Source: Globodera rostochiensis
Taxonomy: Eukaryota > Nematoda > Chromadorea > Rhabditida > Heteroderidae
Length of the DNA stretch: 64,000 bases
Assembly: GCA_018350325.1 (NCBI GenBank)
Contig: JAEVLN010000042.1
Span: 186,001 to 250,000, forward strand
Direction of reading: 5' to 3'
Below, piece after piece: positions 832 through 63,442 of the stretch. The notes beneath the pieces were generated by a model. The model was not told the DNA's origin. It saw only the letters and a program-made list of their open reading frames with translations, and searched no databases. The translations under genes and the position numbers were made by a program. How positions within the stretch are numbered: position 1 is the first letter of the stretch; every line of letters starts with the position of its first letter.

Positions 832-2276
832 ATGGGCGGCTTTCTAAAACGCCTTTTCGGCGGCGCAAAGCGTTGGAAAAAACAGCAAAAATTTGGCACA
901 AATTTGAACGCCCCAACTGAACAGCCTCCGTCCACTTCAGAGCCCGAGGACGAGTTCACTGTGGAACATGTGAAGAAGGACTACGATGTGGACCTGTTGG
1001 ACGAGTCACAAATGTATGGAGACAGATTTGAAAACGTCGTCGTTTTCTTTTGTTGAAAATTCTTGCAGAAAATAATTGATTGTTTGAATCCCCGCAGTCC
1101 CGTACTGAAGCTAAGATTAAGCCTAACTTAGGTTGCCTTGGGGTTTGTTAGGCTTAGGCCTAAGCCTAAGCTTAATCTTAGCTTAGGCTTAGGCTTAGGC
1201 TAAGACGTTGAGGGGATTCGGGAAGTTTTGAGTGTGGGGGGATTCGGGCGGGGGTGGGGGGGATTCAGACCGGAAGCGGTGGAAAATCCCGGTTTTGATT
1301 TGTTTGAAGTCCAGGACAGGACCCAGTTTAGACCGGGAATTGTTCCATCGCCGAAGGCGACAAACGACCACCCAAAAAACATTTAAATTTGTTCCATTTC
1401 AGAAGTAGCCTGAAACGTCGCGCTCGTTCAGCAACACCGCGTCGAACGCTGAATATCGAGGTGGTTTTTTGATACAATCAAAATTTCTTACAAAATTCTT
1501 TTTTTTTGTTGCAAAATGCCAACCCTCACCCCCCCCCCCCCCCCAAGTTCAGCCCGCCGGTCCGCAAGGTCCAATTCCGGTGTGTGCATTCTGTCAGGAG
1601 GAGATCGATGGGCCAGGTACTCTCATCAAAAGCAATGGAAGTCATTAATTTGAACACAAAACATTTTGCGCGCGCACAGTTCTGACAGCGCTGGCACCGA
1701 ACGCCACAAAAGCACAGAAGTTCCATCCGTACCATTTTATGTGCTGCTACTGTCAGAAGGTACGGTAGCTTTCAAGAAGCCCGGAGGTCATTTTGGGTAC
1801 CTTTCTGTTTTTACGACTCTCTCCCCCCCCCCAAGCAGCAGCCCGGAGGTCATTTTGGGTACCTTCTAGTGCTGCACGAGACCTAAAATTTTCCGAGACT
1901 CGAGACCGAGACTCGACCTCGAGACCGAGACCCAAAAAACCGGAACTTTTCTCGAGTCACTAGTACCTTCCTGTTTTTACAACTCTCTCCCCCCCCCACA
2001 AATGTAAATTCGTTGGACAGGCCGAGCGTGGACCCGGGCTCGGTCCCGAGTGATTTTGGAAGGTTTTTGGCCCCCGGCCCCGGAGTCTCACTGAGCTGGA
2101 GAACAACCCGGATGCCGACATTTTTCAAAATATGTGCCACTCAGGCGTTGAATTTGCACGGCACGTTCCGTGAGCACGAGCGCCGCCCGTACTGCCACGA
2201 TTGCTTCTACAAACTGTGGAACGGACTGGTGTACGAGCCGGATGTCAACCAGCGCAACGTTGAAAAGTTGATCTGA
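832..2276 (+). CDS. LIM-domain protein (single C-terminal LIM domain)
   Basis: Five exons join in phase: 832-1013, 1403-1460, 1553-1616, 1680-1759 and 2145-2276, giving about 171 residues. All donors are GT (the first is GTATGG) and all acceptors AG. The N-terminal 60 residues are basic then acidic and look disordered. Residues about 92-155 form a complete LIM zinc-binding domain: CAFC, then HFMCCYC (HxxCxxC), then CHDC before FYKL. LIM domains bind two zinc ions and act as protein-protein docking modules at adhesion or cytoskeletal sites. The stretch GTFREHERRPYCHDCFYKL resembles the paxillin/Hic-5 class, but only one LIM domain is present, so it is not paxillin itself. Intron 1 carries a TTAGGC block and intron 4 a small inverted-repeat transposon. 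The start codon at 832 is the first in frame. Confidence 0.85.
1113..1205. repeat. Interstitial telomere-like TTAGGC block
   Basis: Intron 1 of the LIM gene holds about 15 degenerate copies of TTAGGC or its complement GCCTAA in both orientations, with CTTAGGCTTAGGCTTAGGC as the cleanest run. TTAGGC is the canonical nematode telomere unit. The change of orientation inside the block suggests a foldback rather than a simple capture of a chromosome end. Confidence 0.75.
1867..1962. mobile_element. hAT-like MITE, GAGACTCGAG type, with exact 8-bp TSD
   Basis: The ends are TAGTGCTGCACGAG and CTCGAGTCACTA. The 8 bases GTACCTTC occur immediately before (1859-1866) and immediately after (1963-1970). 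The interior is made of repeated GAGACCGAGACTCGA words. It lies in intron 4 of the LIM gene, next to a local duplication of about 66 bp (1782-1860). TIR ends of the form TAGTG and an 8-bp TSD fit hAT-superfamily non-autonomous elements. Confidence 0.75.
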
Positions 2277-2414
2277 TCTGATTGATCCGATGGCATCAAC
2301 GAAAAAAATGTTTGTTTTTCATCACATACTGCGCTTACAGAACAATGAACACATTGATCGGATCATCAACCGGATTGTCAACCAGAATGTATGTAAATGT
2401 TTTGTCGTTATTCT

Positions 2415-3062
2415 TTCCATCGCTCGCCTCCTTCCCTCCCTCTTCTTGCATTCTCTTCTGTCCATCGCTCGCCTCCTTCCCTCCCTCTTCTTGCATTCTC
2501 TTCTCTCCATCGCTCGTCTCCTTTCCTCCCTCTTCTTGCATTCTCTTCTCTCCATCGCTCGCCTCCTTTCCTCCCTCTTCTTGCATTCTCTTCTCTCCAT
2601 CGCTCGCCTCCTTTCCTCCCTCTTCTTCCGTTCTCTTCTCTCCATCGCTCGCCTTCTTTCCTCCCTCTTCTTCCATTCTCTTCTCTCCATCGCTCGCCTC
2701 CTTTCCTCCCTCTTCTTCCATTCTCTTCTCTCCATCGCCCGCCTCCTTTCCTCCCTCTTCTTGCATTCTCTTCTCTCCATCGCTCGCCTCCTTCCCTCCC
2801 TCTTCTTCCATTCTCTCCTCTCCATCGCTCGCCTCCTTCCCTCCCTCTTGTTGCATTCTCTTCTCTCCATCGCTCGCCGCCTCCTTCCTTCCCTCTTCTT
2901 GCATTCTCTTCTCTCCATCGCTCGTCTCCTTCTCTCCCTCGTCTTCCATTCTCTTCTCTCCATCGCTCGCCTCCTTTCCTCCCTCTTCTTCCGTTCTCTT
3001 CTCTCCATCGCTCGCCTCCTTCCCTCCCTCTTCTTGCATTCTCTTCTCTCCATCGCCCGCAT
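2415..3062. repeat. 45-bp pyrimidine-rich minisatellite, about 14-15 copies
   Basis: The unit begins TCCATCGCTCGCCTCC and runs 45 bp; one copy is 48 bp. Because the period is a multiple of three and lacks stops, at least five frames stay open for about 250 codons, giving LLSIARLLSSLFLHS or EEGGKEASDGEKRMQ repeats. It begins about 140 bp after the LIM stop codon, so it may lie in the 3' UTR or in spacer. No splice-supported gene uses it. Confidence 0.85.
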
Positions 3063-3506
3063 TCACTCCACCATCTTCTGTCAGCACTTCACGTCCAACA
3101 TACTTCATATGAACCGTCACGGAACGGTACTTGACCCTCTGAGATTGTTCATATTCAATGTTTTTTTTAGGCCGATGGTCAAAGAAATTCGAATTTTGGC
3201 ATTTTTAGAGATTTTCCGATATCGTTTGAAATATCGAAAGTTATTGCCAAAAAAAAAAGTTCGAATTTTTTTCTTTAAATGGCCTATAAAATTCTGTTTA
3301 AGAAAATTGGAGACTAACCTTTGCCTGCTGATGAACTTTCATTGACACGTTTTCGACCTCGTCCGACTCTTCCGGCTCAAAGCCTTTAAAATGTTTTTGT
3401 TGTGTACTGGTCATCAGAAGGGCACAAATTTATAGAATTGAAACGTCAAAATGTTCAAAAAAATGGCTGGCTAAATATGGGCATTAGGGTGCGAGAGATG
3501 GCCCGG
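3063..3506. other. A/T-rich spacer
   Basis: Unique-looking A/T-rich spacer between the minisatellite and the next foldback. I see no exon, RNA gene or repeat of note. Confidence 0.4.
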
Positions 3507-3813
3507 GCTTATTATTTCCTTAAACTGTTTTCCAAAGTCAACTAAATCAAAGATTTTTGAGAGCATTCGAAAGCTTATAATTAGTAGAAGCTATCAATCA
3601 ACAAGCAAAGCTAATGTAAGTGATTGTTGAACAAATCTCAAAAAAGTTATGGCTAAACAAATCAAATTTTCGCCTTTTCTGTCCATAACTTTTTTGAACT
3701 TTGTCCAATCGCTTAGCTTTTCATTGCTAATAGCTCTACTAATTGTAAGCTTTCAAGTGATATTAAAACATTGGAGATTTAGTCGACTTTGAAAAAGGTT
3801 TAAGGAAATAAGC
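3507..3813. repeat. Long imperfect palindrome (foldback element)
   Basis: The left arm starts GCTTATTATTTCCTTAAAC and the right arm ends GTTTAAGGAAATAAGC. Inner blocks also pair, for example AAGTCAACTAAATC with GATTTAGTCGACTT and AAAAAGTTATGG with its complement. The fold centre is near 3660. No protein is encoded and no clear flanking duplication was found. Confidence 0.75.
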
Positions 3814-4041
3814 TTGGAAAAAAGTAGCTAAATGCCGAACATGGACGCGGCAAAAAGCGAATTAGAAAATTAATTTGTGCAAATCATATCGCCAAAACCA
3901 TTTTGCACGCGGCAGACAGCGCGATGGTTAGACACTACATATGTTTTGTTTTGATATAAATAGCGATGGCTTTCAACAATTTGTTCTCACATTCGCGCAG
4001 CTTTACCAACAAAAAAATATTTTTAACAAACGACAACAAAA

Positions 4042-10060: not shown

Positions 10061-10074
10061 ATGGTACGGTCGGG

Positions 10075-10290
10075 ATGCCGGCTCGGGATCCTTGCATAAT
10101 CCCAACCCCGACCCAATCCCAGAACCCGGCTCGGGATCCTTGCATAATCCCAACCCCGACCCAATCCCAGAACCCGGCTCGGGATCCTTGCATAATCCCG
10201 ACCCCGACCCAATCCCAGAACCCGGCTCGGGATCCTTGCATAATCCCAACCCCGACCCAATCCCAAAAACTCAACCCGGCTCGGGATCCT
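10075..10290. repeat. 48-bp minisatellite, about 4.5 copies
   Basis: The unit runs CCCGGCTCGGGATCCTTGCA, TAATCCCAACCCCGACCCAATCCCAGAA. The 48-bp period keeps several frames open on both strands. It carries the palindromic core CCCGGCTCGGG. Confidence 0.85.
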
Positions 10291-11104: not shown

Positions 11105-11285
11105 TTCCAACCCTAAAAATGTCGGGACTCAGAATTCCGACCCCCTAGAAATGCCGACCCCTAAAAATGTCGGGACTCAGAATTCCGACCCCTAAAAATG
11201 TCGGGACTCAGAATTCCGACCCCTAAAAATGTCGGGACTAGAAATGTCGACCCCTAAAAATATCGGGACTTGGAGTTCCGGCCAC
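11105..11285. repeat. Short tandem repeat of a roughly 33-bp CCCTAAAAATGTCGGGACT unit
   Basis: Four to five variable copies of CCCTAAAAATGTCGGGACTC followed by AGAATTCCGAC. The word GAATTCCGA recurs in the 44.2-kb array. Confidence 0.75.
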
Positions 11286-11695: not shown

Positions 11696-12272
11696 GTTGC
11701 ATTCCGATATCTCCGACATCCGATTTCCCACATTTTTGGGGAACGGATTTCCGATATCCCCGACATCCGATTTCCCACATTTTTGGGGAACGGATTTCCG
11801 ATATCTCCGACATCCGATTTCCCACATTTTTGGGGAACGGATTTCCGATATCCCCGACATCCGATTTCCCACATTTTTGGGGAACGGATTTCCGATATCC
11901 CCGACATCCGATTTACCACATTTTTGGGGAACGGATTTCCGATATCCCCGACATCCGATTTACCACATTTTTGGGGAACGGATTTCCGATATCCCCGACA
12001 TCCGATTTACCACATTTTTGGGGAACGGATTTCCGATATCCCCGACATCCGATTTACCACATTTTTGGGGAACGGATTTCCGATATCCCCGACATCCGAT
12101 TTACCACATTTTTGGGGAACGGATTTCCGATATCCCCGACATCCGATTTACCACATTTTTGGGGAACGGATTTCCGATATCCCCGACATCCGATTTACCA
12201 CATTTTTGGGGAACGGATTTCCGATATCCCCGACATCCGATTTACCACATTTTTGGGGAACGGATTTCCGAC
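11696..12272. repeat. 47-bp minisatellite, about 12 copies in two variant blocks
   Basis: The unit is CGACATCCGATTTCCCACAT, TTTTGGGGAACGGATTTCCG, ATATCCC. The first four copies have TTTCCCAC and the following eight have TTTACCAC, so a variant arose once and then spread by further amplification. The period is not a multiple of three, yet frames remain open because no phase of the unit has a stop. Confidence 0.9.
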
Positions 12273-15200
12273 ATGTTTGAGTTCGTCGGCGCCCATCTAT
12301 CATCTCAACAAGTCTATAATAGTCATCAAAAAGTATTTTATTTATTTAAAAATATTTATTTTTGCTATAAAAGAAGTACATAATTTATAAATTGTTTAAC
12401 ATAATTAATTCGAAATGTATTCATTCAAATTAGGCGAATTTGATTTGTTGTTGAATGTTACCGATAAAGCAATGCTTCTTCTCCTGTGAAAGTTACTTGC
12501 AAAAACATAAATTTTATTTAGATATTAATTTTCCCATTGAGTTTTTATGATTTTTTGAAATTAAGCTTAAAAATCGTAAAAGTTTACTCCCAACTTTTTT
12601 TTCAGTGTAATTTTGACTCATTTTCTGTGTTGTAAATTCGTCGAAAAAACTGGCAAAATTGTTGAATCTTTTTGAACCCCTCTTTTTTTGTATGGGTTTT
12701 CGTCGATTAATGTGAAAAAGCGGCGTCATTCGACGACCCGAACACCTAAAAGAATATAACTTTTTTGAGAAAAGCCGAATCGGTTAGCTTTTGCTTGATC
12801 AAATCTTTAACAGACGGAGAGCTTCTGAATGATACCAAATTTGTTTGATTTGCTTTCATATTGACTAAGTTATTGCCCGATCGCGCCCCTAATTGTCCGG
12901 GTGCGCAAAACATTACCAAGAAATAATTTGAAAAAAAATATTCATTTTTTTCAAATTCTTTTTTATTGCGCTTCTTTTAATTTGTCATTTAACCAGTAAA
13001 TTTTGTCTGCGGCACTCTGTGCCCCGCTCTATTTCTCTTTTTTTTTTGTCCCTTTTTCGGCAATGTGCGCAAAATTGGGGCAGATGGAACGGGGAGATAC
13101 GGCGTGAGAATAATTTGCGGGGGCTGCCGGTTTCCGTATGACCTTTCACTCTTTTTCTCATCCTCTCCCCCTTTGGCCGTGCTATTATATTCATTTCGTT
13201 GTTCTCTCGTCCACCACTCTGTCTGTCTGCTTTTCCTTTGGTCTCTAACACTTCTCTTGTGTCCTCCCGGTCTCCCTCTCTCTCTGTTTGGTGTACTTCC
13301 TCGTTCTCTGTCCAACTCTCTGTATGCCTTCCCCTTTTTCTAACTCCACCTCCCGATCTCCCTCTCTCTCTGTTTGCTGTACTCCCTCGTCTCTGTCGTC
13401 CTCTGTCCGTATGCCTTTCCCCTTTTTCTCTAACTCTTCCTCGCGCACTCTCTCCTGCTGTGGGCACTTTGCCAAACGACGCGACGCGACGCGTGAGCGG
13501 CGCAGCATAAATACACACACTCATCCACCCTAAGGGGCGAAATGAGGCGGGAGCTTTCTCCTCCCTCCCTCCCCCCCCATCATTCCTCACCCGGCGGGGG
13601 GATTCATCCCATCCAACCCGAATAGCAGCAGCTGCAGCCTCCGAGCAAAGCACACACGTGGGTGGTATAGTTGGGGAATTCCACACACATCCAGCAGTAA
13701 TGGCGAAAGAGGGAGCTTAAGCTTAGGCTTAAATTAGGCCAGAGCAGAGAAAGGCGAGCCCTTGGGGGGCTTTATAGCAAAACAGCGAGGGTCTGTTGTG
13801 CCCTGCAGGGATGTTATTAGACAGGAAGTCGCCCTTAGGGTGGGGGGGGCAAACCTCATCAGCTGCGAGAGACATATGTAGAGAAACATGGGGGGGGGGG
13901 GGGGAACGATGCCGCTGGGGCCCACCCAACCAGTGGATATAAATATGTGGGGGCCCATAGGCAATTTTGTCGTCTTCCAAATTGTATTTGTGTCGTCCCA
14001 TTTGTATTCATTCCATCCGAAGCGCCGGCGGGGAAAAGACCGACCGACCCCCCCCCCCCTTTTGCTTCCATTTCTTCTCCCCGCAAGCGCTTAAAATAAA
14101 TCTCAGCACCGGAGGGGAGAGAAAATCCCCCCCCCTTCCCGCCGGTCGATCAGAATCGATCATCGCGGCGCTGAATAATCCGCTTCGAAGCTGCTTTTCC
14201 GTTCCTTTCCTCATCACAAAACACACCCGCCGGGGGGTATTTTCTGTTAGTTTACTGCTGGTCCCCCCCCCCCCCCAAAAGGTGCTGAAAAGAGGGGATT
14301 TGTGAGCTGCTGCGCGACACAACTCTTTTGAAATTAGTTTTTTGAACCTCCTTTTTTTTATTTAAACTTTTTTTGAAATCACCAAGAGAGTGATCGATTG
14401 ATTGATTCAGAAACCTGATCAACAAACAAAAAAAGAGTGATCACATTCCGGAGAGCGATCAGAAGTTATTTAACTGTAAGCGTTTGCCGCATTTTCTATG
14501 TCAGCAGTTGTTGGTCCCCCCCCCCCTCCCCCACTCAATGTGATGAAATCCCTGCGTCATCAACAAGCATGAATGAATGTGATGAGCTGCTCTGGCTTCT
14601 TTTTTTGTTGCCATTTTACCCCCAACATCCCCTCACAAGCGGCCCACCCACAATTTAAACACTCGCGCTGCTTGCCCCCCACGATTGAGCGTGGCATTTT
14701 GGTGCCGTACTTACTCCGTCCTTCCACACGGTTTGAAATCAAAAAACCCCCGGGTTTTGATTAGAGTCCGGACCCAAGACCCAAAAATTTTTGAGATGTT
14801 GTTTTGTACAAAAAATTGGACCAAAAGTTTTTTGGTTTTGGGTTTTAAGTCAAATTGGAGTACCAAAAGAAACCAAAACCCAAAAGTTTTGACCAAATTT
14901 TGTTTGGGCCGGGCCCAACTTCCTGTCTCTAGTTTTTATTTAAAAAATTCATTAAAATTAATGATATTGGCAAGAAAATTTTTTGCATTTTCTGAAGAAA
15001 TTTTTGGGAAAATGGCAAATAGGTACATCCTCGTTAAAACGACGCAATTTTCACCCTAATTTGTAATGCTGCACGAGACCCAAAATTTACCGAGACTCGA
15101 GACCGAGACTTGACCCCGAGACTCGAAACCGAGACTTGAACCCGAGACTCGATACCGAGACCCAAAAAACCCGAGACTTTTCTCGAGTCGAGACTCGAGA

Positions 15201-18200
15201 CCGAGACTCTCGTGCAGCACTACTAATTTGACTTTTGAGGGGGTTTTTTTTGCCCATAATTTTTTGGTTAATCATTTTTAATGCCAATTTTCTCATATCG
15301 CAAAGACTCTGTGCACTTTCACCTCTTCCATATCAATAATATGTATTTACACTATTAATTCGTATTTTGCGTAATTTATTTTCATCTCCATTTTGTTTTC
15401 GTCAAATTTCTACACAGAATCACGCCATTTTTCTAATTTTTACCTTCCCGTCAACTGGTACTACAGAATTAAAACTACCCATTTTTTAATCAATTCTTAA
15501 TGAAATTGATGAATGAAATGAAACTTATTCGCACTTTTTTTTGGTCCGATTTTTGTAAAAATTTCAAATAATTTCCCCTGCGGCGAGGTATAGGCAACCC
15601 AACAAAACCACAATTTTCGTTTTCGCCCCCGCGGCGACCTAATTTAATCACTTGATAGAAAGTTTACTCTTGGCATCAATACGGATTATGTTTGGGGCTA
15701 AAGTGAATTTTAAAATGTTCTTCGGGCAGGCGCCTGGGGGGAGGGGGGGGGGGGGGGGGAGATGATCTTTGGCACGTGTTATAATCACAATGCTTCTTCT
15801 GCTGATGATGATGTAATTAGTGGTGGTGGTGGTTGTTCGTATAAAACGCGCATTAAAATCCGCTGCGCGATTGCTTTATGGCCTAGCAAATTCTGGCCAT
15901 TGATTCCCAAAGTTTTTGGAATTCAAAAATTTAAATTTGGTACATAAAACGGCGGGAGACGACGCCGCAATTACCTATGTACCTATTTAGATTGGAATCC
16001 AAAGCAAATACCTACATAGTATAGACTTTATCAGTGATTTTGTGAGCACATAAACTGCAAAAAGACACACACAACATTTATGTAGGTTAGCAGGGCTCAT
16101 CCCATACGTACTTGAATGGCAAGTACAGTACTTGAAGACTGACACCCCTCGTATTTGGAAAAATTAAAAGGTACTTATTTTTAGCTTAGCTTTGAAATCC
16201 CATGCTGATCAATGGCGGAAAAGATTTAACCATTTTTAAACGGTTGTAAACGTTTTTTTGAGCGCCCAATTAGTCCCGGCCAAAAAAAAAACCGTGACTA
16301 CTGGACAAAAAAAACGTTTTGAAAAAAACCGGGACTAAATTTCAGTCCCAGAAAGACATTTCAGTACTGGTCCCGGTCCCGCTCAACCCCAATAAAAACC
16401 CATCTAGGTTTATCTGTTCAGTTGATTCATTTTACACCATTGTCATTTTCCGCATTTTGTTTATTTTTTTCATAAAAAATATCGTTAAATATTCAAAAAA
16501 AAAAATTCCCTGCTGTGTCTATCGGCACAGCCGACCCCCCCCCCCCCCCGCAGAAGTGAATCAGATTTCTCAACAAAACAAATTGAATTCCTTAACAAAA
16601 ATGCAACATCAATTTATTTATTTTTGGAGTTTTTCAATGTTTTTGTTACATACAATACATACTGGCTGCTGGTGATGTCTTTAGTGTGCTGGTTTTTGTG
16701 TAGATGAGGTGGTGGTGGGTGACGCATTTATTTTTGGTTTGTTTGACCAATTTGGTCAAATTAATGTCGGGGCGGGGGGGGGCGGGGGTGGGGTGAGGAG
16801 GGGTCGGTCGTGTGATTAGCGGTGGTGCAAAGTCCACCGTCCTTCCGATTCGATTATCATCTTTGTGCAGGCAGCAGCAGCACACACAGCAATTTATGCC
16901 TTACCCCCCCCCCCCACCTCCCACTTCGTCTCCCCTCCTTTCCTTCTCCCTCCCCCCGCAAGTCCGTCCCCATCATGATGGTGGTGGTGGTGGGGGTGGT
17001 GTCTTATCCAAACTTTTCTTCATTCGTTCAAATCAAACAAACCTCCGCCGTTCGACCCCCCAACTCTCTCTCCAGCAACAAGAAGTAAGCCCCCGCTCTT
17101 ATCAAATTTTTTCTTTTGCATCCCACACAAAATACTACTAATGACCTATGTGCGAATGGGAGGAAGACGCGACGCGATTTATATTCATATATTTGGCGAA
17201 GCCCAACCCCTCCCCCCCCCCCAAATGAAAAAGATAAGAAAAGCCTTATAAAGCCAATGATTCCCCCGCCGATTTGGTTCAAATTCCGTTTTTGCCACAG
17301 CATTTGTGCTGTGCTTTGCTTTGCGATTCTGTGTTTTATTGGGGGGGGGGGGGCGGGGGGTTGGGAGGGAATAAAGATGGAAACCAATTTTTGTGTCCTT
17401 CCCCCTCACATTTTTTTTTGTCCGCCCAAAATTTTCATTTAATTATATTTCTTTTGGTCATAAAAATTAAGGGGTTAAGTGGGAGACCGCGGGCGATTGC
17501 TTGGAGTTGGAGGAGTTTGGGGGGGGGGCAGCGATTAAATTCCAATTTCATGCTTAATCATGCGCGAAAATTTTTTAAATTTTCTTGCAATTTCAGCGGT
17601 AGTTCCATCTTGAAGCAGTTCATCTTGTTGACTCATTCAAAGTTTCAATTTTTGCTCCCCCAAGGTCAAAATGGCGGGTGGTGTGGCTGGGGGGTTTTTG
17701 CTGGTGCTGCCCCTCCTAAAAATGCGTAAACGAACGCTTTCCCCCCCCCCCCCCAAAAACGTAACGCATTAAAATGTGGGATGATGATGATGATGTGTTT
17801 ACATTTACAACATTCACAGAAAAACGAATTCCAATTTTGGACTTTCTTTTTCGTTTCACATTTTTATGCATTGCATTTTCACCCAGCGCCGAAAAATGAG
17901 ACCATCGCGCGGTGTATTTAAGTTTAATGAAAGTGTGTTACCGCCGAGCATTTTCCTTGACTCTGATCAAAGTATTCACAGTTTCTAGACCATTTCTCAG
18001 AAAGTTGTTGGTTTTTAATATGTAAATCACTAATTCGATAACTTTTTTGGAGTCAACCCATCTTATCAATCACTACCCCCACCAGGGCTGTGTCGAAAGT
18101 AACAAAAAAAAAAAAGTCGAAATCGAAAATCGAAACTGAAAAATTCGAAATCGAAAGGAAAAAAACGTCGAAAATCGAAAATAGGGTGTTTTTCGTGCAT

Positions 18201-25899: not shown

Positions 25900-26060
25900 T
25901 AGAGCCCGGCGAGATCGAGATCCTGACCGAGATTTTCCGAGAGTCCAGGTCTCGAATCTCGGAAATTTGGCGAAAACTCCGAGACCTGGACTCTCGAAAT
26001 TTCGAGACAAATCTCGATCTCGGTCTCTCGATCTCGGATTTTTCAAAAGTCCGGGCTCTA
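25900..26060. mobile_element. hAT-like MITE, CGAGATCTCG type, just upstream of the p24 gene
   Basis: The ends TAGAGCCCGG and CCGGGCTCTA are perfect inverted repeats. The flanking octamers are CACCTTAA (25892-25899) and CACCTTAT (26061-26068), 7 of 8 matching. The interior is a chain of GAGATCTCG and GAGTCCAGGTCTCG words that folds back on itself. The element ends 35 bp upstream of the p24 start codon. Confidence 0.8.
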
Positions 26061-41300: not shown

Positions 41301-44300
41301 TTTTAGCGGGCAAATGCCGAAAACCTCCCCCCCCCCCCCCCCCCCCCCGGAGTGTTGCCTCCCCCCCCCCCCCCCGGAGTGTTGCGCAGCTATCGCTTAA
41401 GCGATATTTCTGCACTCCGGTTAGGCACCGAGCATTTTCGGGTTATCTCGAAAAATATTGATCGAAAAGTACCGAGATTTCAATCGAGGATCTCGAAAGT
41501 CTCCGTAAAATTTCGCGATCGAGAATCTTGAAAAATATTGCTCGAAAAGTACCGAGATTTCAATCAAGAATTTTGACCCGGGCTCTAGATCTGACCCCGA
41601 AGCTTCCCAGTTTCGGACATTTTTTCAATTCCAAAATTTTATTTAAAAACAGTTAAATTGGATTGTCACGCGCATTCGCTCACGCTGTCCGGCTTCTCGC
41701 CGCTGAAGCTGTTCCGTGGCCACGTGCAGCCCAAACGCGCGGCAGCTGCTGCAAATTGCGCGCAGCTTCGCATTGACTCGGCCGTGCACGCGTTCCGCGT
41801 CAATTTGCCGTTCACGCGCTGCGCATTTGAGAAGAGCAGCGGCGAGCAGTACACACGGCACACCAACACACTGATGATCAAAGAGGCCAGCACGGAGCTG
41901 ATCACCGCACGGGACAAAACCGTACAGGTACGACGGCGGCATTGGCACGAGTCTGTCCAATTCGATTGGCACGAATCTGTCCAATTCGATCGGCACGAAT
42001 CTGTCCAATTCGATCGGCACGAATCTGTCCAATTCGATCGGCACGAATCAGTTCAATTTGATTGGCACGAATCCGTCTAATTTGATCGGCACGAATCAGT
42101 CCAGTTCGATCGGCACGAATCCGTCCAATTCGATTGGCACGAATCCGTCCAATTCGGAATGTCCTCCTTTTTTGCAGGTGAATTGTTACCTTCGTCGGAA
42201 GCCGTTTGCTGCTGTTGTTACGCCTTCAACAATTGCCACAAATTTTGGCGGGCCTCCTCTGCTGAACGTCCGCTTTCGCACTGTTCACAACAACACTGAT
42301 GATGATGACGATGAAGCAGAGCAACATGTTGAAGCTGGAGCAGTACCTAAAGCTGTACATGCACCGCAACAGCAACAAATGTTGTCCACGCGAGTGCTGT
42401 TGGTGCCGTCGTCTTCTCCATCCGCGGAAGATGACGACGGGGCCAAACGACGGCTCCGTGGAGGACAAAGGCAACAGAGCGAGGTGGTAGAGCAAAACTG
42501 TACATGGGCGAAGACGTTTCAAAGTTTCGAAGGAGTTCAGCGGAATTCAAAGCTCAACGAATTTACAGTATTATTCCAGAGTCCCAATTCCGTCATTCTC
42601 AGGGGTTGGTCTCCAGCCTTTCGGCGGGGGGACAGAATGTTTTTGTGGGTCGGCGATAGAGACCGGACCGATCGATCATTCTCGATCAAAATTTCGATCG
42701 GTCTTCAAGTCTGATCTCTAGTGGACTTGCATAGGCATAAAAAAGGCGTGAACGGTCCGGGAATCCCGTACTTTTTCCCCGCGGGGATCCATCCCGTTCT
42801 CGTCGATCTCTAATCAGGCTCTCCACCATGGATGCCAATGATCATTTTTTGATTTTGCTTAAAGCTCTCAAACTGTCTGATTTAAATGCATTTTTTGAAT
42901 TTGGCCTTTTCTTTGTAGGGTCCGGCTTATCGGCTGGAAGTGCTCGACGCGTCGGGGTTGCCCGTGCAGCAAAAGGTGGAGTTGGGCAAGCCCGGCTTTT
43001 TGGAGATCCGACGGCGCGTCTTTGCCGAGGAGCACAAATTCGACGGGGACAACGACGGCTCGCTGTTGTTGAGCGATTTGAAGGCCATGGATTCGGCAAA
43101 CGTGGCAAATGCCGTGCCGTTGATCGATTCTGATGGGTTGGGTGTGCCGAAATTGTCAAATTTTCACAAACCCCGGCCACCCTCTTCCAGTTGTGTGACA
43201 AACGCGTCGATGGTCACTTCCATTCAACGCATGGACGCCAATCGGATTCGAATTGGCATTCGTTTCAGTGGCTTTGGCGATAAGGTGTTTTTAGCGGGAA
43301 ATGTTCGATTTTTGAAATTTTCAATTTTTAGGCGCGCGTCGCATACCAGGGCATTGTAAAACGTTGTGAATTCGGCTGCCTGCTGGACTGTAATCGGCAC
43401 TTTTACATTGGTGCGCAACAACTTTCCGATTCGGAGGCGGCCAATTTCGGCACCGATGCGCAAAATGTGCCGTCCTCTGCTGCCGGAGGCGATCAAAATC
43501 CGGCGGCACAGTTCAAATCGTTGACGGCACCGGACGGCGGGGTGGACACGGAAAGTAATGATCAGCATCAGCAAGATTATGCCACGGATGGTCAGCTGCC
43601 GTTTCTGGTGGACAACATGTTCGGCACGGGCACGCCGCCAACGCCGCTTCGACTGCACCGGCGTGCCATTCCAATGCCGGCGGAGGGGGCAGAGCGGCCA
43701 AATCGGCACTTTCAACTGCGCGACGACATTTGGGAGGTGCGAACCCACGGCATGGAGGCGGTGGTGGTCAATGGGACGGGCAGAGATGAAGCACCAGTGG
43801 ACGACAAAGTCAGTAAGCATCCGGCAAACGATGTAACCGGAATGCCAAAAAAAGGCATTTTCCGAAATTCTCTATCCAAAAAATGCCATTGGAAACCGCG
43901 TCGTTAGTTTCTTTGGGTCCGTGCCGTCCAATGCCCTTCAAAATTAGAGGCCCGGACTTTTTTGTCGAAACGATTTTTGAGCCCCCCGGCGGGCGCGGGG
44001 ACTCCCGAGGGGGAAAAGCAACGGCGTTTCCGTTAACGGAAGCGGGAAAAAGGCGGGAATTCCGCTCCCGGTAAATTTGAATTAATTCCCCGTTCACGCT
44101 CCCAAAAATAATTCCTTGGCAAAATGTTTCATTTTTGGTGGACCAATTTTCATCACAAAAACCGTTTAAAAATTCAAAAAATTTTCCCCCAAGCCAATCC
44201 GGTCAACTATAAGTACCGTATATTAGGGATGGTCGGAATTCCGATTTCCGACTTTTTTTAGGCCTTGGAATTCCGATTTCCGAAACAGTTTTAAGGCATC

Positions 44301-46103
44301 GGAATTCCGATTTCCGACTTTTTTTAGGCCTTGGAATTCCGATTTTCGAAACAATTTTAAGGCATCGGAATTCCGATTTCCGACTTTTTTTAGGCCTTGG
44401 AATTCCGATTTCCGAAACAGTTTTAAGGCATCGGAATTCCGATTTCCGACTTTTTTTAGGCCTTGGAATTCCGATTTCCGAAACAATTTTAAGGCATCGG
44501 AATTCCGATTTCCGACTTTTTTTAGGCCTTGGAATTCCGATTTCCGAAACAATTTTAAGGCATCGGAATTCCGATTTCCGACTTTTTTTAGGCCTTGGAA
44601 TTCCGATTTTCGAAACAATTTTAAGGCATCGGAATTCCGATTTCCGACTTTTTTTAGGCCTTGGAATTCCGATTTCCGAAACAATTTTAAGGCATCGGAA
44701 TTCCGATTTCCGACTTTTTTTAGGCCTTGGAATTCCGATTTTCGAAACAATTTTAAGGCATCGGAATTCCGATTTCCGACTTTTTTTAGGCCTTGGAATT
44801 CCGATTTTCGAAACAATTTTAAGGCATCGGAATTCCGATTTCAGAAATTTTTTGAGGTCGTTGGCTCCCATCCCTGCCGTATATCCCCTAAAATAGAGCC
44901 ACCTTTTGGGGAGGGTGAAAAAGTAGCTCCCGGGCCCCAGGGGCTCTATATACGGTATATCCAACGAATATTTGATTGGTCCGATCACTTTACTCCCATC
45001 AACCCACCCCTTTTTTGGTCTGATCAGATCAGAAAATAAAATGTTATACCAATTTGAAAAAGCAACAATCAGCACAAGCACAGCCTTAACCCTTTTTCAG
45101 CACGTTTACTCGACGAGACAAAAATAAATTAAAAATCAATTTTAATTTGTCAAGAGTTTGGCGAGAGTAGAAGAAATTCAAAGCATTTTGTCAGATACAA
45201 ATTTTTGCAAAATTTTAATTTTGTTTTTTCAGGAAAATTTCCGCCCCCTAAAGAAGCAAATGTTCGCTTGCCTTCGTGACATCAGCGTGCTGCTTGCAGC
45301 ACTGCAAGCCGTGCTTTTGCTCGTCTGCGCCTATTTGTTATACGTTCGGCTGAGCGTAAACTTTTGTGTTTTACAATAAAATAAATTTTTTTTTTCCGCC
45401 TTAGGCATCGATTTTTGATTTTATTTTTTGAAATTTTGTGCCTTTCCTAGGCATCGGATTTTTTTTGAAATTTCCTCGCCTTAAGCATCGATTTTTGATA
45501 TATTTTTTGAAATTTTGTGCCTTTCCTAGGCATCGAGTTTTTTTGAAATTTCCTCGCCTTAAGCATCGATTTTTGTTTTGTTTTTTAAAATTTGTCGCCT
45601 TTCCTAGGCATCGGATTTTTGTTTTTTTTGAAAATTTTCCGCCTTAGGCATCGATTTTTGATTTTATTTTTTGAAATTTTGTGCCTTTCCTAGGCATCGG
45701 ATTTTTTTTGAAATTTCCTCGCCTTAAGCATCGGTTTTTGTTTTGTTTTTTGAAATTTTGGCGCCTTTCCTAGGCATCGGATTTTTGATTTTTTTGAAAT
45801 TTTTCCGCCTTAGGCATCGATTTTGTTTTGTTTTTTGAAATTTGTCGCCTTTCCTAGGCATCGGATTTTTGATTTTTTGAATCTAAAAAATTTCCATTTC
45901 CCTCTCATATTCATCAGTTTTGGCTGCTGAATGTTAATTTGGCCGCCTCCGCCTTCTTGCGCCGTTTCATCGCCGCCTTCGCACGCGTTCAACCGCCGTC
46001 TCAGCGCCAGCAGCCATCGCCCGAGGCGATTTCGGTTCAGCGGCCACATGAAAGGACAGAAATTATTGGGAATTTAAACCCAAATTTGGCGTTAAAACAG
46101 TGA
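38388..46103 (+). CDS. PAN/Apple- and ZP-domain transmembrane matrix protein (NOAH/NompA-like)
   Basis: Thirteen exons join in phase: 38388-38583, 39175-39335, 39589-39736, 39829-39976, 40054-40217, 40766-40970, 41099-41199, 41653-41927, 42178-42483, 42919-43284, 43332-43808, 45233-45355 and 45918-46103, giving about 951 residues. A signal peptide (SSLLLYLWWLTVAGTERA) is followed by three PAN modules, marked by DECAKRC with PNCAG, DECLQQC with PNCAG, and EECQSAC with CRAW. A ZP region follows from about residue 375 (LDCHAHSLTLSGF, RCAFEK, RIGIRFSGFGDK, CEFGCLLDC), with an acidic Gln/Asp insertion at about 490-560. A single span ISVLLAALQAVLLLVCAYLL lies near residue 870. This order matches apical extracellular-matrix proteins that link epidermis or sensilla to cuticle. 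The exon 4 donor appears to be GC, and the end of exon 9 (42483) is the least certain join. Confidence 0.88.
38632..39108. repeat. Near-perfect 477-bp palindrome in intron 1 of the PAN/ZP gene
   Basis: The left arm begins ATTTGGGTAATAGTGCAGAA and the right arm ends with its complement. Pairing continues through GGGTTTATGAGGGCTTTACG, the CTCGGGGGTTATCGAGGTCG block and ATCTAAGATTTTTGA, with a small centre near 38870. Confidence 0.85.
40214..40650. mobile_element. MITE carrying a 56-bp tandem array, in intron 5 of the PAN/ZP gene
   Basis: The ends TTGGGTTGGTCCCCG and CGGGGACCAACCCTA are inverted repeats. The flanks CTTTCCAA and CCTTCTAA match at 6 of 8 positions. Inside are about five copies of a 56-bp unit with GGTTTGCCATGTCGGGGATC and GGGGACGTCCAAATTTTCGG. 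The intron's 5' splice site (GTTGGT at 40218) falls inside the left inverted repeat. Confidence 0.65.
41420..41590. repeat. Degenerate TCTCGAAAAATATTGATCGA-word element
   Basis: Two direct copies of ATCTCGAAAAATATTGATCG and AAAAGTACCGAGATTTCAAT, ending in ACCCGGGCTCTAGA. It resembles the TAGAGCCCGG element family but lacks a matching left end. Two C18-type tracts lie just upstream (41330-41372). Confidence 0.5.
41935..42165. repeat. 24-bp minisatellite in intron 8 of the PAN/ZP gene
   Basis: Nine to ten copies of ATTGGCACGAATCTGTCCAA followed by TTCG. The 24-bp period keeps several frames open. It occupies nearly the whole intron. Confidence 0.85.
44224..44876. mobile_element. hAT-like MITE containing a 66-bp tandem array, exact 8-bp TSD
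   Basis: The left end is TAGGGATGG and the right end CCATCCCTG, flanked on both sides by CCGTATAT (44216-44223 and 44877-44884). The interior is about nine copies of a 66-bp unit, itself two variants of GGAATTCCGATTTCCGA separated by CTTTTTTTAGGCCTT or AACAATTTTAAGGCATC. It lies in intron 11 of the PAN/ZP gene. Confidence 0.88.
45375..45895. repeat. Tandem repeat with GCATCGATTTTTG words in intron 12
   Basis: Degenerate repeats of CCTTAGGCATCGATTTTTGA, TTTTGAAATTTTGTGCCTTT and CCTAGGCATCGGATTTTT; composite units of about 95-110 bp. The array runs almost up to the last acceptor of the PAN/ZP gene. Confidence 0.75.
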
Positions 46104-50071: not shown

Positions 50072-50679
50072 ATGGCTGATGTTTACGATTTGCTTAGCAA
50101 TCTCAAAAAAAGGATGACACGGACACGACGACGAAAGGCTACGACCGCAAATGTTGGTGTTGGCGAGGTCTCCATTTCTGGTGAGTTAGTTCTGCTCCGC
50201 TCAACCAACTAGAGCCCGGAATTTTGAAAAATCCGAGGCCGAGATCGAGAAATTTGGGGATGGGCCGAGACCTAGATTTTCGAGATCAAAAATTTTCGAA
50301 ATTCCGAGAGTCTAGGTCTCGGAGTTTTCGACAAATTTCCAAGATTCGAGACCTAGACTCTCGGAAAATCTCGGATCGAGATCTCGATCTCGGCCGGGCT
50401 CTACAACCAACTCGTTTTTGCTTTCATTATTTTCTTTCAAACTCTGGTTTCTTCAGAGTAGTAAAGTAGTGTCTTGCAACCTTTTTATGTTTTTTTACAA
50501 TTTATCCATTTTCAGATAAATCGAGAAGCGGCGGTAGCAGTGGCTTCAGCATGCTCTGCATCACCCTGTTCATTATTGTGATGGCCATTGTTTTGTTGGT
50601 CGTCGTCTTCTTTGTTGTTGTGGTGATTTGGCCGGGCATAGTGGAGGACACACCGCTGGAGAACATGTTCGGTGATTGA
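50072..50679 (+). CDS. Small single-pass membrane protein
   Basis: Two exons, 50072-50180 and 50516-50679, join in phase (G then AT) to 90 residues. The N-terminus is basic ([15 protein letters not shown]), then GSSGFS, then a strongly hydrophobic span, [20 protein letters not shown], continuing FVVVVIW, and a short acidic tail ending ENMFGD. The charge pattern puts the N-terminus in the cytosol. No family recognised. The donor is GTGAGT and the acceptor TTTTCAG. The single intron contains a complete inverted-repeat element with target duplication. Confidence 0.75.
50210..50403. mobile_element. hAT-like MITE, CGAGATCTCG type, exact 8-bp TSD
   Basis: The ends TAGAGCCCGG and CCGGGCTCTA are perfect inverted repeats. 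CAACCAAC flanks both sides (50202-50209 and 50404-50411). The interior consists of CCGAGATCGAG and GAGTCTAGGTCTCGG words. It has the same ends as the copy at 25900. Confidence 0.9.
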
Positions 50680-50965: not shown

Positions 50966-51138
50966 TAGGGTGGCACGGGACCGGGACCAGTACTGAAATG
51001 GTCAATTTTTTCCATTTTGGTACTGAAATTTTAGTCCCGGTTTTTCAAAATTTCTTTAAAATCCCCTAATAATGGTCCCGGTGTTTTACTCCCTCCCGGT
51101 CCCTGTTTTTCCAAAAGTCCCGGTACCGTGCCACCCTA
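50966..51138. mobile_element. hAT-like MITE, GGGACC type, exact 8-bp TSD
   Basis: The ends TAGGGTGGCACGGGACC and GGTACCGTGCCACCCTA are inverted repeats. GTTCCGGT flanks both sides (50958-50965 and 51139-51146). The interior repeats GGGACC, GGTACTGAAAT and TAGTCCCGG. It lies in the spacer between two small genes. Confidence 0.9.
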
Positions 51139-57840: not shown

Positions 57841-57854
57841 CTAATCGTTATTAA

Positions 57855-59035: not shown

Positions 59036-60030
59036 ATAGCCTATTTTAAGCCCTCCTCCCCTAATCGGTGGATTAAAAGCATTGATTTTGTCGACGCTTT
59101 TCAGTCGACCGGGTCACTCAACTCACTCACTCAATGGACACACAAATAATGGGGCGAGTGACCGCGACGGATAAAGCTTTTACTCTCTCTCTCTCTTTAC
59201 ATCGTTTCAACAAAAGAGGCCGCCGCCGCCGACCGACCCGCCGGATCAAATTGCCGGCGGCACATCGCGGCGGAGGCGGAAGATCCCCGGCGGGGGCAAT
59301 CCGTCCCCCGGCAAGACAAAGGGCTTTCTTTTGAGGCGAGAGTGCTCTATATCCGTCTTCTTGGCCATTGTTTTGTGCCCCCCCCCACTAAAATTTTGGC
59401 CATCCGACAGCCGGTGGCTTCTCGTGCAGCAAAAATGTTGTCCAACCAACCAAATGTGACGAAATGAACACGATCCCCCCATTTTTGAAATTTTTCTAAA
59501 CGCCAATTGTAAGCGGACAAAATGTCCATAATCCGGTTAAAAAATGTCTCCCGAGGGGAGGGCGTTTATGACGAATTTTCTCGGCCTTCGTTGTTTTTTG
59601 TCTCTTCTCCAAATATCTTCTCCCCGAAGGCGTTCAAAAAAGAACAACAAAAACGTCGAAACAGATTGGAAGAATTGGAGCGTGAAATGGCGGTCACTGG
59701 GCTGCCCGGGGGGGGGGGAGTTAAAGCCGATGAACCCCCCGGGGGGATCGGAACCATCCTTTATAACGCACTCGCTTATATATCCATATGGTGTTTAAAT
59801 CAACAATTGATGACCGAGATTATTCGCTGCTTAACCGGTCTTTAACAGAAGTTCAGCAAGTTTACCCGAAAAAAACTCAAATGTGCTGCGCGACCTGCTT
59901 GCTGTTTGTCCCGTTCTTTGGTCTTTCTCGTCTGCCAAAAGCCGGTCTACTAACATTTTTGACCACCCCGCTGCATGCCGGGCACATTTTCACTCTGATC
60001 GTTTAAAATGGCATTTTTTGTAAATTTCAT
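59036..60030. other. Spacer with one unassigned coding-like patch
   Basis: At 59632-59735 one frame reads AFKKEQQKRRNRLEELEREM, followed by AVTGLPGGGG, which looks like a charged helix. It runs into a poly-G tract and I found no partner exons, so I do not call a gene. No other feature was seen. Confidence 0.3.
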
Positions 60031-60034
60031 TTTA

Positions 60035-60540
60035 AATTTTGATCAATCTGATCGGCGCTGAGCTCTCCAAACATGCTTCGAAGCTTTCTTTAAATTCTGA
60101 TCAATCTGATCGGCTGAGCTCTCCAAACATGCTTCAAAGCTTTCTTTAAATTCTGATCAATTTGATCGGCTGAGCTCTCCAAACATGCTTTAAAGCTTTC
60201 TTAAATTCTGATCAATCTGATCGGCTGAGCTCTCCAAACGTGCTTCAAGGCTTTCTTTAAATTCTGATCAATCTGATCGGTTGAGCTCTCCAAACATGCT
60301 TCAAAGCTTTCTTTAAATTCTGATCAATTTGATCAGCTGAGCTCTCCAAACATGCTTCAAAGCTTTCTTTAAATTCTAATCAATCTGATCGGTTGAGCTC
60401 TCCAACATGCTTCAAAGCTGTCTTTAAATTCTGATCAATCTGATCGGTTGAGCTCTCCAAACATGCTTCAAAGCTGTCTTTAAATTCTGATCAATCTTAT
60501 CGGCTGAGCTCTCCAAACATGCTTCAAAGCTTTTCGGGTT
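60035..60540. repeat. 58-bp minisatellite, about nine copies
   Basis: The unit runs TTCTGATCAATCTGATCGGC, TGAGCTCTCCAAACATGCTT and CAAAGCTTTCTTTAAA. It is rich in palindromic words: TGATCA, GAGCTC and AAGCTT. Confidence 0.9.
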
Positions 60541-61732
60541 CTGTTTCTAAAGTGATCAGCGACCGACCAACCGCCGCACACTTAAACTTGTGCACAATTC
60601 CATTTCAACATAAATCCTCAAATCGCTTCTTCTGTTTCCAGTCGCCTCCTCCCCCCCCCCATTCTTCACTCCACAAACATTGGACTTGTCCGGTCGCCTG
60701 AGGGGATGATCCTTCCTCCCTCCCTCCCTCCATACCTTCCAACTAATCGTCCATTTTGCAGCACAACGATTTTCCCCTCCGGCGACGGATGGATGAGGGA
60801 AGAGGGGGGGGGGGCTAAATGCCCAAAACCAAACGCGTGTTGTTCCCTCCCCCCCCCCCTCAAATTGGGTATTTTCAAATGCTTCTTCTCCTCTCCACAT
60901 TTGTGAAAAGAAAGTTTTTAGTTTCCCCTCAATCCTTTTTAGTTTCATACAATTAAATCCGTTAAGCCAGGCTTAAGCTATGCTTAGGCTTAGGCCTAAG
61001 TCTAAGCCTAGCTTCAGTACTGGACAGAATCGGCAATCGTGGTGGGCTTCGGACGGGTAGCCAGCCGCCAAACTTGATTTTTGGAACCAAATGACCGAAT
61101 TCTGGCCCGGGGTTCGGAATTGGTTGTAACAGAGGCCAGAATCGGATTCTTCGACCCCGAAAACCTCCAGAAAAAAACATGTTTTTCATGACATCTAATA
61201 ATCACTGACGCATTTTCCGGGAGCCCCCCCCCCCTAAAGTGTCCGTAGAGTTTTTTTAGTTTTGAAACTTGGCACACTGGTGGTAGCACGCCGCCTCACA
61301 TTGCTTCAAAAACTGGCATTCCTCTTTGCTGCGGACGCCGGGGGCGAAATATAAGCACGCAGACTCAACTTTTCGCATTTTAACTTAACAAAAATTGATC
61401 TCTTTTGAGACCTAAAAGTTTACCGAGACTTTGAGACCACGACGCGCCAAGCAGTTGGACTTTTTGTCGCGTTGAGACCCGAGACTAGAGAAAGGACTTA
61501 AGAACCGATCGAGATTTTGATCGAAAAGCTCGAAAAAAAAGCCTCGATCGTGCTTCGTTCAAGATCACAGAAAAATCTCAAATCTCGCAAAAATCTCGGT
61601 AAAATTGTGTCGATTGATTTTTCGATTGAGAATCTCGAAAAAAAATCTCGGCCGTCCTTCTTGCCGCCGCCGGCCCTGTAAAAAGCCATTTACAAAATTT
61701 CAAAAAAAAATTTTTGTCCGCCGCGTTAGTTA
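60541..61732. other. Spacer with TTAGGC and GAGATTTCGA words
   Basis: A TTAGGC/GCCTAA block in mixed orientation lies at 60961-61012. A stretch of ATCTCGAAAAAA and GATTGAGAATC words lies at 61490-61655. Poly-G and poly-C runs occur near 60650, 60807 and 60850. No gene seen. Confidence 0.45.
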
Positions 61733-61999
61733 CAGGGGAGGGTCGAAACCTTTCGATTTCGATTTTGATAATTTCGAGGTTTTTCTACCGATTTTCTTTT
61801 CGAAAAAAATCGAAATTCAAAAAAAATTTTTGTCCGCCGCGTTAGTTACAGGGGTGGGTCGAAACCTTTCGATTTCGATTTTGATAATTTCGAGGTTTTT
61901 CTACCGATTTTCTTTTCGAAAAAAAAATCGAAATAAAAACACTTTTAATTTCGAAGATACTTTCGATTTCTGAAAAATTTTCCTTTCGACCCACCCCTG
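61733..61999. mobile_element. hAT-like MITE, TTTCGA type, exact 8-bp TSD
   Basis: The ends CAGGGGAGGGTCGAAA and TTTCGACCCACCCCTG are inverted repeats. GTTAGTTA flanks both sides (61725-61732 and 62000-62007). The interior contains two direct copies, about 115 bp apart, that include the left end and its flank again (CGCGTTAGTTACAGGGG at about 61838), so a partial tandem duplication happened after insertion. Confidence 0.85.
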
Positions 62000-62384
62000 G
62001 TTAGTTAAGCAAGGCCGTCCCAGACATTCGTAATTCGGCAAAACGTTCCATTAATTCAAAAGACGCGCCGCTGTTTTCAAAAGTTGTTTGTGTTTTGCGC
62101 GGCATAGACAAAACGCCAAATGCCTTCGGGCGATGAGCGGACGGAGGGCGGACGGCTAATTAGATCAATCCGCCGGGGAGATGAAAAGAACACACAATGA
62201 ATGAATGAATGGTTGATGACCCCAGAGGGGATGATGATCGCTTTATGTATGTTTTAGGATGGTCCGTCCGTTTTTGGATGCGTTCGTTGACCGGTTCGGG
62301 ATCAAAATTAGCCGTTCAGAAAGCTTTTCCCCTCCTTGCGAGAGAAAAACACCCAAAAGTGTCTCTAAATTGAATAATTAAAAG

Positions 62385-62541
62385 TAGGGTTGAGCCCGAC
62401 CCCTCGGGGGGTCGTGGTTTTCGTCCCCGACCAAAAAAGTCGGGGTTTTTCCCAGCCAAAACCCCGAAAATTTCAAAAAAAGTCGGGGACGAAAACCCCG
62501 CCTAAAGAGAAGTCGGGGTTTGGGGACGGGACTCAACACTA
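62385..62541. mobile_element. hAT-like MITE, GTCGGGG type
   Basis: The ends are TAGGGTTGAGCCCGACCC and GGGGACGGGACTCAACACTA. The flanks ATTAAAAG (62377-62384) and ATTAAAAC (62542-62549) match at 7 of 8. The interior has GTCGGGG and CCCCGAC words that pair with each other. Confidence 0.85.
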
Positions 62542-62549
62542 ATTAAAAC

Positions 62550-62728
62550 TAGAGACCAGAAACTTGGACCCAAGAACCGAAACCAAAAAATTTTTTGGGG
62601 ATTTTTTGGTTTTGGTATTTTTTGGGTTGACAATTTTGTACAAAACCCAAAAAAATTTAGAAACTTTTGTCCAATTTTTGTACAAAAACCCAAAAACTTT
62701 TTGGCTTTGGTTTTGGGTCAGGTATCTA
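62550..62728. mobile_element. Second MITE adjacent to the first, exact 8-bp TSD
   Basis: The ends are TAGAGACCAGAAACTTGGAC and a degenerate GGTATCTA. ATTAAAAC flanks both sides (62542-62549 and 62729-62736). The interior repeats CCAAAAAATTTTTTGG and GGTTTTGGG words. The left target copy is also the right target copy of the preceding element. Confidence 0.8.
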
Positions 62729-63194
62729 ATTAAAACCCAGCTTAAAGTGTCACAGGTCTGGGCCGGTGCCGAAGTCGCCGCGCGCTTGGAAAATTTTTGA
62801 ATTTTAAATTAACAAATTTTCAAAAATTCTGCAAATTTTTTCCCCGAATTTAATTAGAATTTATAGCAAATGAATGAAATGCCCTAAATGGACGAGCCCA
62901 TTTAGGGCATTTTGCATCCAATTAAAAGGGCATATTTGCCCACGGTCATTTTCTTTTTCACATATTTTTATTCCATTCCCCGGCGGGGGAATAAACGCTG
63001 CGGAGGGACGGACAATTTGCCCCGGGCGTAATAAAATATTTTTTATTTATTTTCCCTCCGGGGGGAATGAATGAATGTGTGTGTGGACAACTGCTTGAAT
63101 TGTGTGAAGAATCGTCAGTCAGTCCAGCAGCAGCACAAAGTCCATTTGTACATTCCTTTTGGACGAAAGCTCTTCATTTCTTCCCCGGTGAAAG

Positions 63195-63442
63195 TAGGGT
63201 TCAGCCCCGTTCCCGAACCCCGACTTTTCTTTAGTCGGGGTTTCGTCCCCGATTTTTGAATTTTTCGGGGGTTTTTTGCTGGGAAAAACTTTGAACCCCG
63301 ATTTTTTTTAGTCGGGGTTTTCGTCCCCAATTTTTGAATTTTTCGGGGTTTTTTTGCTGAGAAAAACCCCGAACCCCGACTTTTTTAGTCGGGGGTTTCG
63401 TCCCCGACTTTCCCGCCCCCGAGGCGTCGGGGCTGAACCCTA
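63195..63442. mobile_element. hAT-like MITE, GTCGGGG type, exact 8-bp TSD
   Basis: The ends TAGGGTTCAGCCCCG and CGGGGCTGAACCCTA are perfect inverted repeats. GGTGAAAG flanks both sides (63187-63194 and 63443-63450). Inside are three copies of a roughly 70-bp unit with AACCCCGACTTTTTTAGTCG and GGGTTTCGTCCCCGA. Confidence 0.92.

Follow-up and report, generated by a model that had tools for sequence, protein, structure and literature searches.

The window analysed here is a stretch of 64,000 nucleotides from the nematode Globodera rostochiensis (assembly GCA_018350325.1, contig JAEVLN010000042.1, positions 186,001 to 250,000; G000:C37:186001-250000 in our numbering), and it contains a set of ten miniature inverted-repeat transposable elements (MITEs) of the hAT type whose interiors are rich in short repeated words. 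Comparison of sequences suggests that such one-word MITEs probably originate by deletion between direct copies of the arrays found at the two ends of longer hAT elements, each word being a putative binding site for the transposase of its own lineage. In five of the seven families into which the ten elements fall (F1, F3, F4, F5 and F7) the interiors can be aligned with arrays located subterminally in hAT elements of the same genome that carry a transposase. Because the words recur in such subterminal arrays they have a source, and it is likely that the interiors are inherited and not newly invented.

Word arrays in transposase-bearing relatives

The genome searched was the 92.6-Mb assembly of 80 contigs. 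Transposase loci were collected as the 30 best of 100 matches to PF05699 (the hAT dimer domain), each taken with 1.5 kb on either side, and four further hAT 3' sides (L119-L123) were drawn from the other 70 matches, with one end seen per locus. Complete ends and an exact 8-bp duplication surround the domain in 12 of the 30 best loci. L001 and L017 are also transposase-bearing with an exact 8-bp duplication, and L013, completed with a further stretch (L092), is an element of ∼2.85 kb with ends CAGGGGTGGG and the duplication CTTCGTAT on both sides. The word arrays are found at the ends of these elements: in all 12 tested, repeated 7-mers reach 0.05-0.71 at the ends, compared with 0.00-0.01 in the middle. 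The zinc finger zf-BED (PF02892) scores above its cut-off in three of four hAT transposase N-termini.

The initial annotation had advised looking for an autonomous hAT transposase sharing the ends of the MITEs, and relatives of this kind are found for some of the families. By alignment, those of F3 (L017), F5 (L013+L092) and F7 (L019/L020) have like ends and arrays; those of F1 (L121) and F4 (L120/L123) are seen at one end; F2 has only its 10-bp ends in common with L008/L009 (the first 10 bases of the copy at 25900), and F6 has only a similar end in L029. F5 aligns to L013, L014, L024 and L026, F7 to L019, L020 and L022, and F3 to L017 and L018, with the window copy of F3 matching hAT-bearing L017 at 82% over 123 bp. 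The array of L121 is 81% identical over 125 bp to the F1 copy at 15064. L120 and L123 contain F4-like arrays, and their end matches the F4 TAGGA type at 18 of 20 bases; the end of L123 is 89% identical over 36 bp to the F4 copy in the window, and the F4 word is also present in L120. L119 and L122 have further words, as read by eye at one end each.

A tree of the dimer domain from the 30 loci contains six well-supported small clades, each with one word type where the word is readable; six loci are without an assigned word and several deeper forks are unsupported. Eight word classes coexist in this one genome. Members of the same class have 0.57 of their repeated 7-mers in common (20 pairs, lowest 0.24) and members of different classes 0.018 (151 pairs, highest 0.14). 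These classes, which the analyst defined by ends and words and which take in three long non-coding forms, coincide with the tree's clades. The earlier claim of different interiors behind conserved ends is correct in so far as similar terminal blocks (TAGAGCCCGG/TAGAGACCGG, TAGGG..) precede different words: TAGAGCCCGG is present in L001, L008 and F2, and the TAGAG-ended lineages L001, L008, L015 and L019 have four different words. These words follow different transposase clades and are likely not new inventions.

The end bases vary as well. Bases 6-10 (base 6 in F1, bases 8-10 in F6) differ among subfamilies and mostly agree at both ends of a copy. Among the first 100 ends listed per family, this agreement was seen in 28/28 pairs of F1 (15.1 by shuffling), 13/16 of F4 (3.8) and 9/14 of F6 (2.9). 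Retrieved elements behave likewise, under automatic end labels that place F5 copies under 'other' and some unlike elements under F4, and with two window elements entering the count twice. L013 and L014, whose dimer domains are identical, differ in their ends, which match within each element. Common descent of the subfamilies explains much of this agreement, but not a simultaneous change of both ends at the origin of a subfamily.

Seven families with shared interiors

The initial annotation had listed at least nine elements. These are real, and their number is ten (62385 and 62550 are separate elements), grouped into seven families (Table 1) and not into ten separate interiors. All ten have hAT-type inverted ends and an 8-bp target duplication, which is exact in eight and matches at 7/8 bases in two; the right ends of the elements at 1867 and 62550 are decayed. 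An 8-bp duplication is a hAT trait, and nTnnnnAn is the hAT target preference. This consensus is present in 39 of 65 distinct exact duplications from the window and the retrieved loci (5.1 expected), with T at position 2 in 51 and A at position 7 in 52 of them.

The duplications are also above the level of shifted controls. With strict YARNG at both ends, 8/36 pairs in the window have the duplication, and none at 24 shifts; among these eight are an element outside the list, at 34045, and each of the nested starts 61733 and 61849. A first screen of the window used YANNG ends (not YARNG) and 12-bp inverted pairs with ≤2 mismatches, 80-1500 bp apart. Here, 9/69 pairs had an adjacent 8-mer duplicate (≤1 mismatch; six exact), with no duplicates at each of 24 shifted positions, and when exact border duplicates of 4-12 bp were tried, length 8 gave six, length 4 gave two and the other lengths none. 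Listed elements missed by the strict screen are those at 1867, 44224 and 62550, whose ends differ more, and that at 50210, whose two-letter duplicate was filtered as simple. In L031-L090, loci retrieved since they hold F4 or F1 copies (some being near copies of one another), 39/259 pairs have the duplication at the border, two of the 39 being the window's own elements again, compared with ≤2 at any other shift. In L001-L030 the border gives 13/152, and shifts +3 and -5 give 24 and 11, located inside TACCG arrays.

In the DNA searches only the best 40 candidates per family were scored, out of 1112 for F1, 121 for F2, 277 for F3, 412 for F4, 144 for F5, 307 for F6 and 268 for F7. The scored copies have the interior of their family in common in all seven families, mostly at ∼75-97% identity; many matches, chiefly of F5 and F6, span part of the query, and the F3 query consisted of its first 136 bases only. 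Exact end patterns occur 558 (F1), 546 (F4) and 408 (F6) times genome-wide, and reversed-pattern controls gave 0. Since interiors are common within each family, this is ordinary MITE behaviour, and the assignment to hAT-type MITEs (short, non-coding, multicopy and with common sequence) is supported. The earlier suggestion that new interiors are being made between conserved ends is not supported: ordinary families with shared interiors were looked for across the genome and found, and copies within each of the seven have one interior.

That each interior consists of one repeated word is a description that holds in part. Repeated 7-mers lie above all 200 dinucleotide shuffles in 10/10 elements, but in comparison with the rest of the window, itself rich in arrays, only 4/10 reach the top 5%, with F6b at the 5% line and F4 and F7 at 9-11%. 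Against such a background, strict 7-mer repetition is weak as proof of 'one word'. Nearness to hAT matches was dropped as a test of parentage, only the best copies being scored: copies within 5 kb of a match number 3/41 for F5, 7/40 for F7 and 1/40 for F1 (∼0.4 expected each), and none for F2 (40), F3 (40), F4 (40) and F6 (39).

Long non-coding forms of F1 and F4 also exist (L066, L075, L082-L084, L117), with pieces of other genomic repeats between the arrays, some of them cross-family. The middles of L083 and L117 match each other at 81% over 141 bp, and middle pieces recur elsewhere in the window (27900, 32470). ARAGORN with bacterial settings found 0 tRNA genes in the middles of six loci, and Rfam gave 0 matches at E 0.1 in five; a captured tRNA or known RNA was rejected on these zeros.

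Proposed deletion between direct repeats

The first and last 300 bp of each element were compared, with a threshold of at least 40 bp and at least 80% identity. A direct repeat reaches this threshold in 13/16 transposase-bearing elements and in 7/8 word classes, and the repeat common to both ends is 46-179 bp long. Ends of different classes gave no such direct repeat (0/302 pairs), and the best inverted match between the ends came up to this quality in 0/16 elements. Two long non-coding F1 forms (L075, L083) also reach the direct-repeat threshold.

Deletion was then carried out in silico by joining the ends once across the direct repeat, and product length and identity were compared with those of copies. 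For F7 a product of 182 bp is predicted (184 with two end bases lost in slicing), and 7/7 copies are 177-188 bp long with 81-97% identity, the window copy being 81% identical to the product of L019+L091. For F5 the prediction is 139-144 bp, and 3/3 copies are 135-151 bp long at 86-94%; the window element is 86% identical to the product of L013+L092, with ends CAGGGGTGGG alike in both. For F1, the long non-coding L075 and L083 predict 171-172 bp, and 15/17 distinct copies are 72-97% identical (89% between the copy at 15064 and the L075 product). For F3 the one copy compared is 71% identical, at 190 bp where 144 are predicted. When the cut is displaced by 40 bp from register, the product scores lower for every F5, F7 and F3 copy and for the F1 copies that fit, and higher for two short F1 copies. 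Among the parents tested none fits F2 (0.61-0.66), F4 (0.54) or F6 (0.46-0.54). In-register deletion explains F5 and F7 well and F1 and F3 partly; for the rest it is an extrapolation.

By this route, gap repair or recombination between same-facing array copies at both ends would delete the transposase, either by abortive gap repair that uses long homology or by single-strand annealing. A miniature of arrays alone would keep what the transposase needs. Likeness to Hermes and Herves predicts that the N-terminal BED finger would bind the word, which makes the words predicted transposase-binding sites of their own lineage, and co-divergence of word and transposase would account for the differences between families. 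Hermes needs ∼220 bp of each end in cells, and its BED fingers bind repeats located subterminally (PMC10368747). The transposase of Herves binds a motif that recurs at the two ends (PMC3143072), and the direct repeats at which abortive gap repair after excision is described as causing deletions are 5-8 bp long (PMC8700633).

Several points weigh against this origin. The direction from long to short is one that we infer. F6 is without aligned transposase kin in the retrieved loci, F2 and L008 have in common only the ends and a weak match (score 43-44 of 161-194), and the kinship of F4 amounts to 36 aligned bases plus the word. The F7-type element L019+L091 is without matching flanks, and its N-terminus scores 13.4 bits where the BED cut-off is 20.6. 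Three transposase-bearing elements miss the direct-repeat threshold (L011, 179 bp at 79%; L025, 122 bp at 74%; L001, 30 bp at 90%), as does the long non-coding F4 form L117 (37 bp, 73%), and in 9/16 elements the best inverted match does reach 40 bp, at 65-77%. Short F1 forms, such as that at 1867, do not fit the product (two distinct copies, 57% and 54%), and 16/28 F1 pairs among the first 100 ends listed are 91-138 bp, below the product length. Agreement in F1 length is favoured because likeness to the copy in the window was the basis of retrieval, and the off-register products score lower in part because this control is 40 bp shorter. Finally, the 5' and 3' sides of one element are not in every case more alike than those of different copies, and the evidence for a steady homogenisation of the arrays was mixed.

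Alternative origins

The order of events could be reversed, with short array elements coming first and the long or transposase-bearing forms arising by capture of DNA between the array halves. The other genomic repeats in the middles of the long non-coding F1 and F4 forms, some common to families and present elsewhere in the window, agree with this, and capture may explain these non-coding forms. As a general route it is improbable: eight transposase-bearing word classes have end arrays, 7/8 with the direct repeat, and repeated gain of a fitting transposase is unlikely.

It is also unlikely that the word arrays simply grew by slippage or as satellites inside MITEs that are otherwise unrelated and have no connection with a transposase. 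F3 with its 9.4 units is what such growth might give, and array length differs between copies, but hAT elements have the same words at either end, and the words track transposase clades; slippage can extend an array and does not choose its word.

The capture-and-amplify or hairpin-templated invention of interiors proposed in the initial annotation can draw on the similar terminal blocks before different words and is nevertheless very improbable, as interiors are common to the copies of a family, different words belong to different transposase clades, and the high-identity matches between ends are direct with none inverted (0/16), on which ground a hairpin or foldback reading was rejected.

Comparison with known systems

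Same-facing arrays set these elements apart from foldback elements (FB, TU, Galileo), whose ends also consist of subrepeats and whose arrays form long inverted repeats; the end matches here face the same way, and at the threshold used the inverted count is 0/16 and the direct count 13/16. Hermes and Herves have an 8-bp duplication as here. They (and Ac, Tag1 and Tol2 as cited there) are also alike in having short terminal repeats, a zinc finger and an element-specific motif repeated subterminally at both ends. In the present genome, by contrast, the motif forms dense arrays, with a long direct repeat common to the two ends in most elements, and eight word classes are found together. According to the Herves account, internal deletion seems to be less frequent in some hAT elements (PMC3143072), whereas miniatures abound here. 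Ds and other derivatives of abortive gap repair are similar in being non-autonomous, in keeping both ends and in showing deletion between direct repeats, but the repeats described for them are 5-8 bp (PMC8700633), compared with tens to >100 bp inside end arrays here. The mar elements of Drosophila and BniHAT of Brassica are likewise hAT-type MITE families; the openings of their abstracts mention no word-array interior. Coral CMITEs resemble the present families in having differing ends with a kept interior part and in forming tandem arrays of elements, but they are linked to piggyBac and one interior is conserved across families (PMC2872659), where here there is one word per transposase lineage.

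Subterminal motifs peculiar to a family are already known, as are BED fingers and deletion derivatives. What differs here is the dense same-facing arrays, the long deletion homology and the many private words side by side. No account recognisable as these nematode families was found among the open-access papers listed, and one Meloidogyne genome paper, in the part available, treats MITEs in bulk only.

The elements and their surroundings

Table 1. Coordinates and sequence features of the ten hAT-type elements in the window
Family and form	Position	Strand	Length	Ends	Word	8-bp duplication
F1 MITE, short form	1867..1962	+	96 bp	left TAGTGCTGCACGAGACC, right decayed	GAGACTCGAGACC	GTACCTTC, exact
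F1 MITE	15064..15222	+	159 bp	TAATGCTGCACGAGACC/TAGTGCTGCACGAGAGTC		CTAATTTG, exact
F2 MITE	25900..26060	.	161 bp	TAGAGCCCGG	GAGATCGAGATC	CACCTTAA/CACCTTAT, 7/8
F3 element	44224..44876	.	653 bp	TAGGGATGG/CAGGGATGG	66-bp unit (GGAATTCCGA) x 9.4	CCGTATAT, exact
F2 MITE	50210..50403	.	194 bp	TAGAGCCCGG		CAACCAAC, exact
F4 MITE	50966..51138	.	173 bp	TAGGGTGGCACGG	CGGGACC	GTTCCGGT, exact
F5 MITE	61733..61999	.	core 61849-61999 (151 bp)		TTTCGA	GTTAGTTA, exact
F6 MITE	62385..62541	.	157 bp	TAGGGTTGAG/TAGTGTTGAG	CCCCGACC	ATTAAAAG/ATTAAAAC, 7/8
F7 MITE	62550..62728	+	179 bp	TAGAGACC/TAGATACC	ACCAAAACC	ATTAAAAC, exact
F6 MITE	63195..63442	.	248 bp	TAGGGTTCAGCCCCG		GGTGAAAG, exact

In the F5 entry, 61733-61848 is part of a tandem copy (period 116; 61703-61934) that takes in flanking DNA and the duplication. 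The F7 element at 62550 abuts the F6 element at 62385 with one duplication in common (62377-62736), in the order ATTAAAAG, F6, ATTAAAAC, F7, ATTAAAAC. L025 likewise contains two adjoining hAT elements (438-2050), where GTATGTAC is present three times. Newly duplicated target sites may be preferred for insertion. Two extra elements are found in the window: one at 32294-32728 with inverted ends and an 8-bp duplication (CATAGATGCCC, CTCGGCAG exact, not YARNG), and one at 34045-34387 with ends CAGGG[T/A]GGCCAGA and a 7/8 duplication.

Elsewhere in the genome, two F7-type transposase-bearing copies lie inverted to each other (L019 from 1176, L091, L020 to 2059; ∼C3:1839620-1845489), and the right flank of one (ATTTAGAC) is the reverse complement of the other's flank (GTCTAAAT), as after an inversion. 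At G000:C11:100852-112057 five hAT dimer-domain matches follow one another every ∼2.75 kb, as an element or segment arrayed in tandem.

The window contains further word-like tandem arrays at 7774-7989, 10078-10265, 11133-11270, 11702-12271, 40280-40628, 45392-45878 and 60031-60533, the ends of which are unchecked; part of these additional arrays (CGACCCC) look like the F6 word. An interstitial TTAGGC array is present at 1148-1201, TTAGGC being the telomere repeat in many nematodes. For a host acyl-CoA synthetase read from the window's frames, the top two of at least 120 matches listed are proteins of Globodera pallida (96% identity) and Heterodera schachtii (86%, with 72% of the query covered), and on this one protein the genome is likely that of a Globodera.

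Implications

A broader scenario can be put forward tentatively, and we would lean somewhat against it as a whole: that hAT elements have radiated in cyst nematodes with private address words, that the same-facing arrays would both recruit the transposase and supply the homology that deletes it, so that every lineage would breed binding-site MITEs, and that changes in the word and in end bases 6-10 would found mutually blind lineages. It is an open question how MITEs originate and what makes certain transposons produce so many. The present genome by itself offers parallel cases of parent, deletion homology and product that can be compared letter by letter, and its coexisting pairs of word and transposase are material from which to read how the recognition code of a DNA transposon changes.

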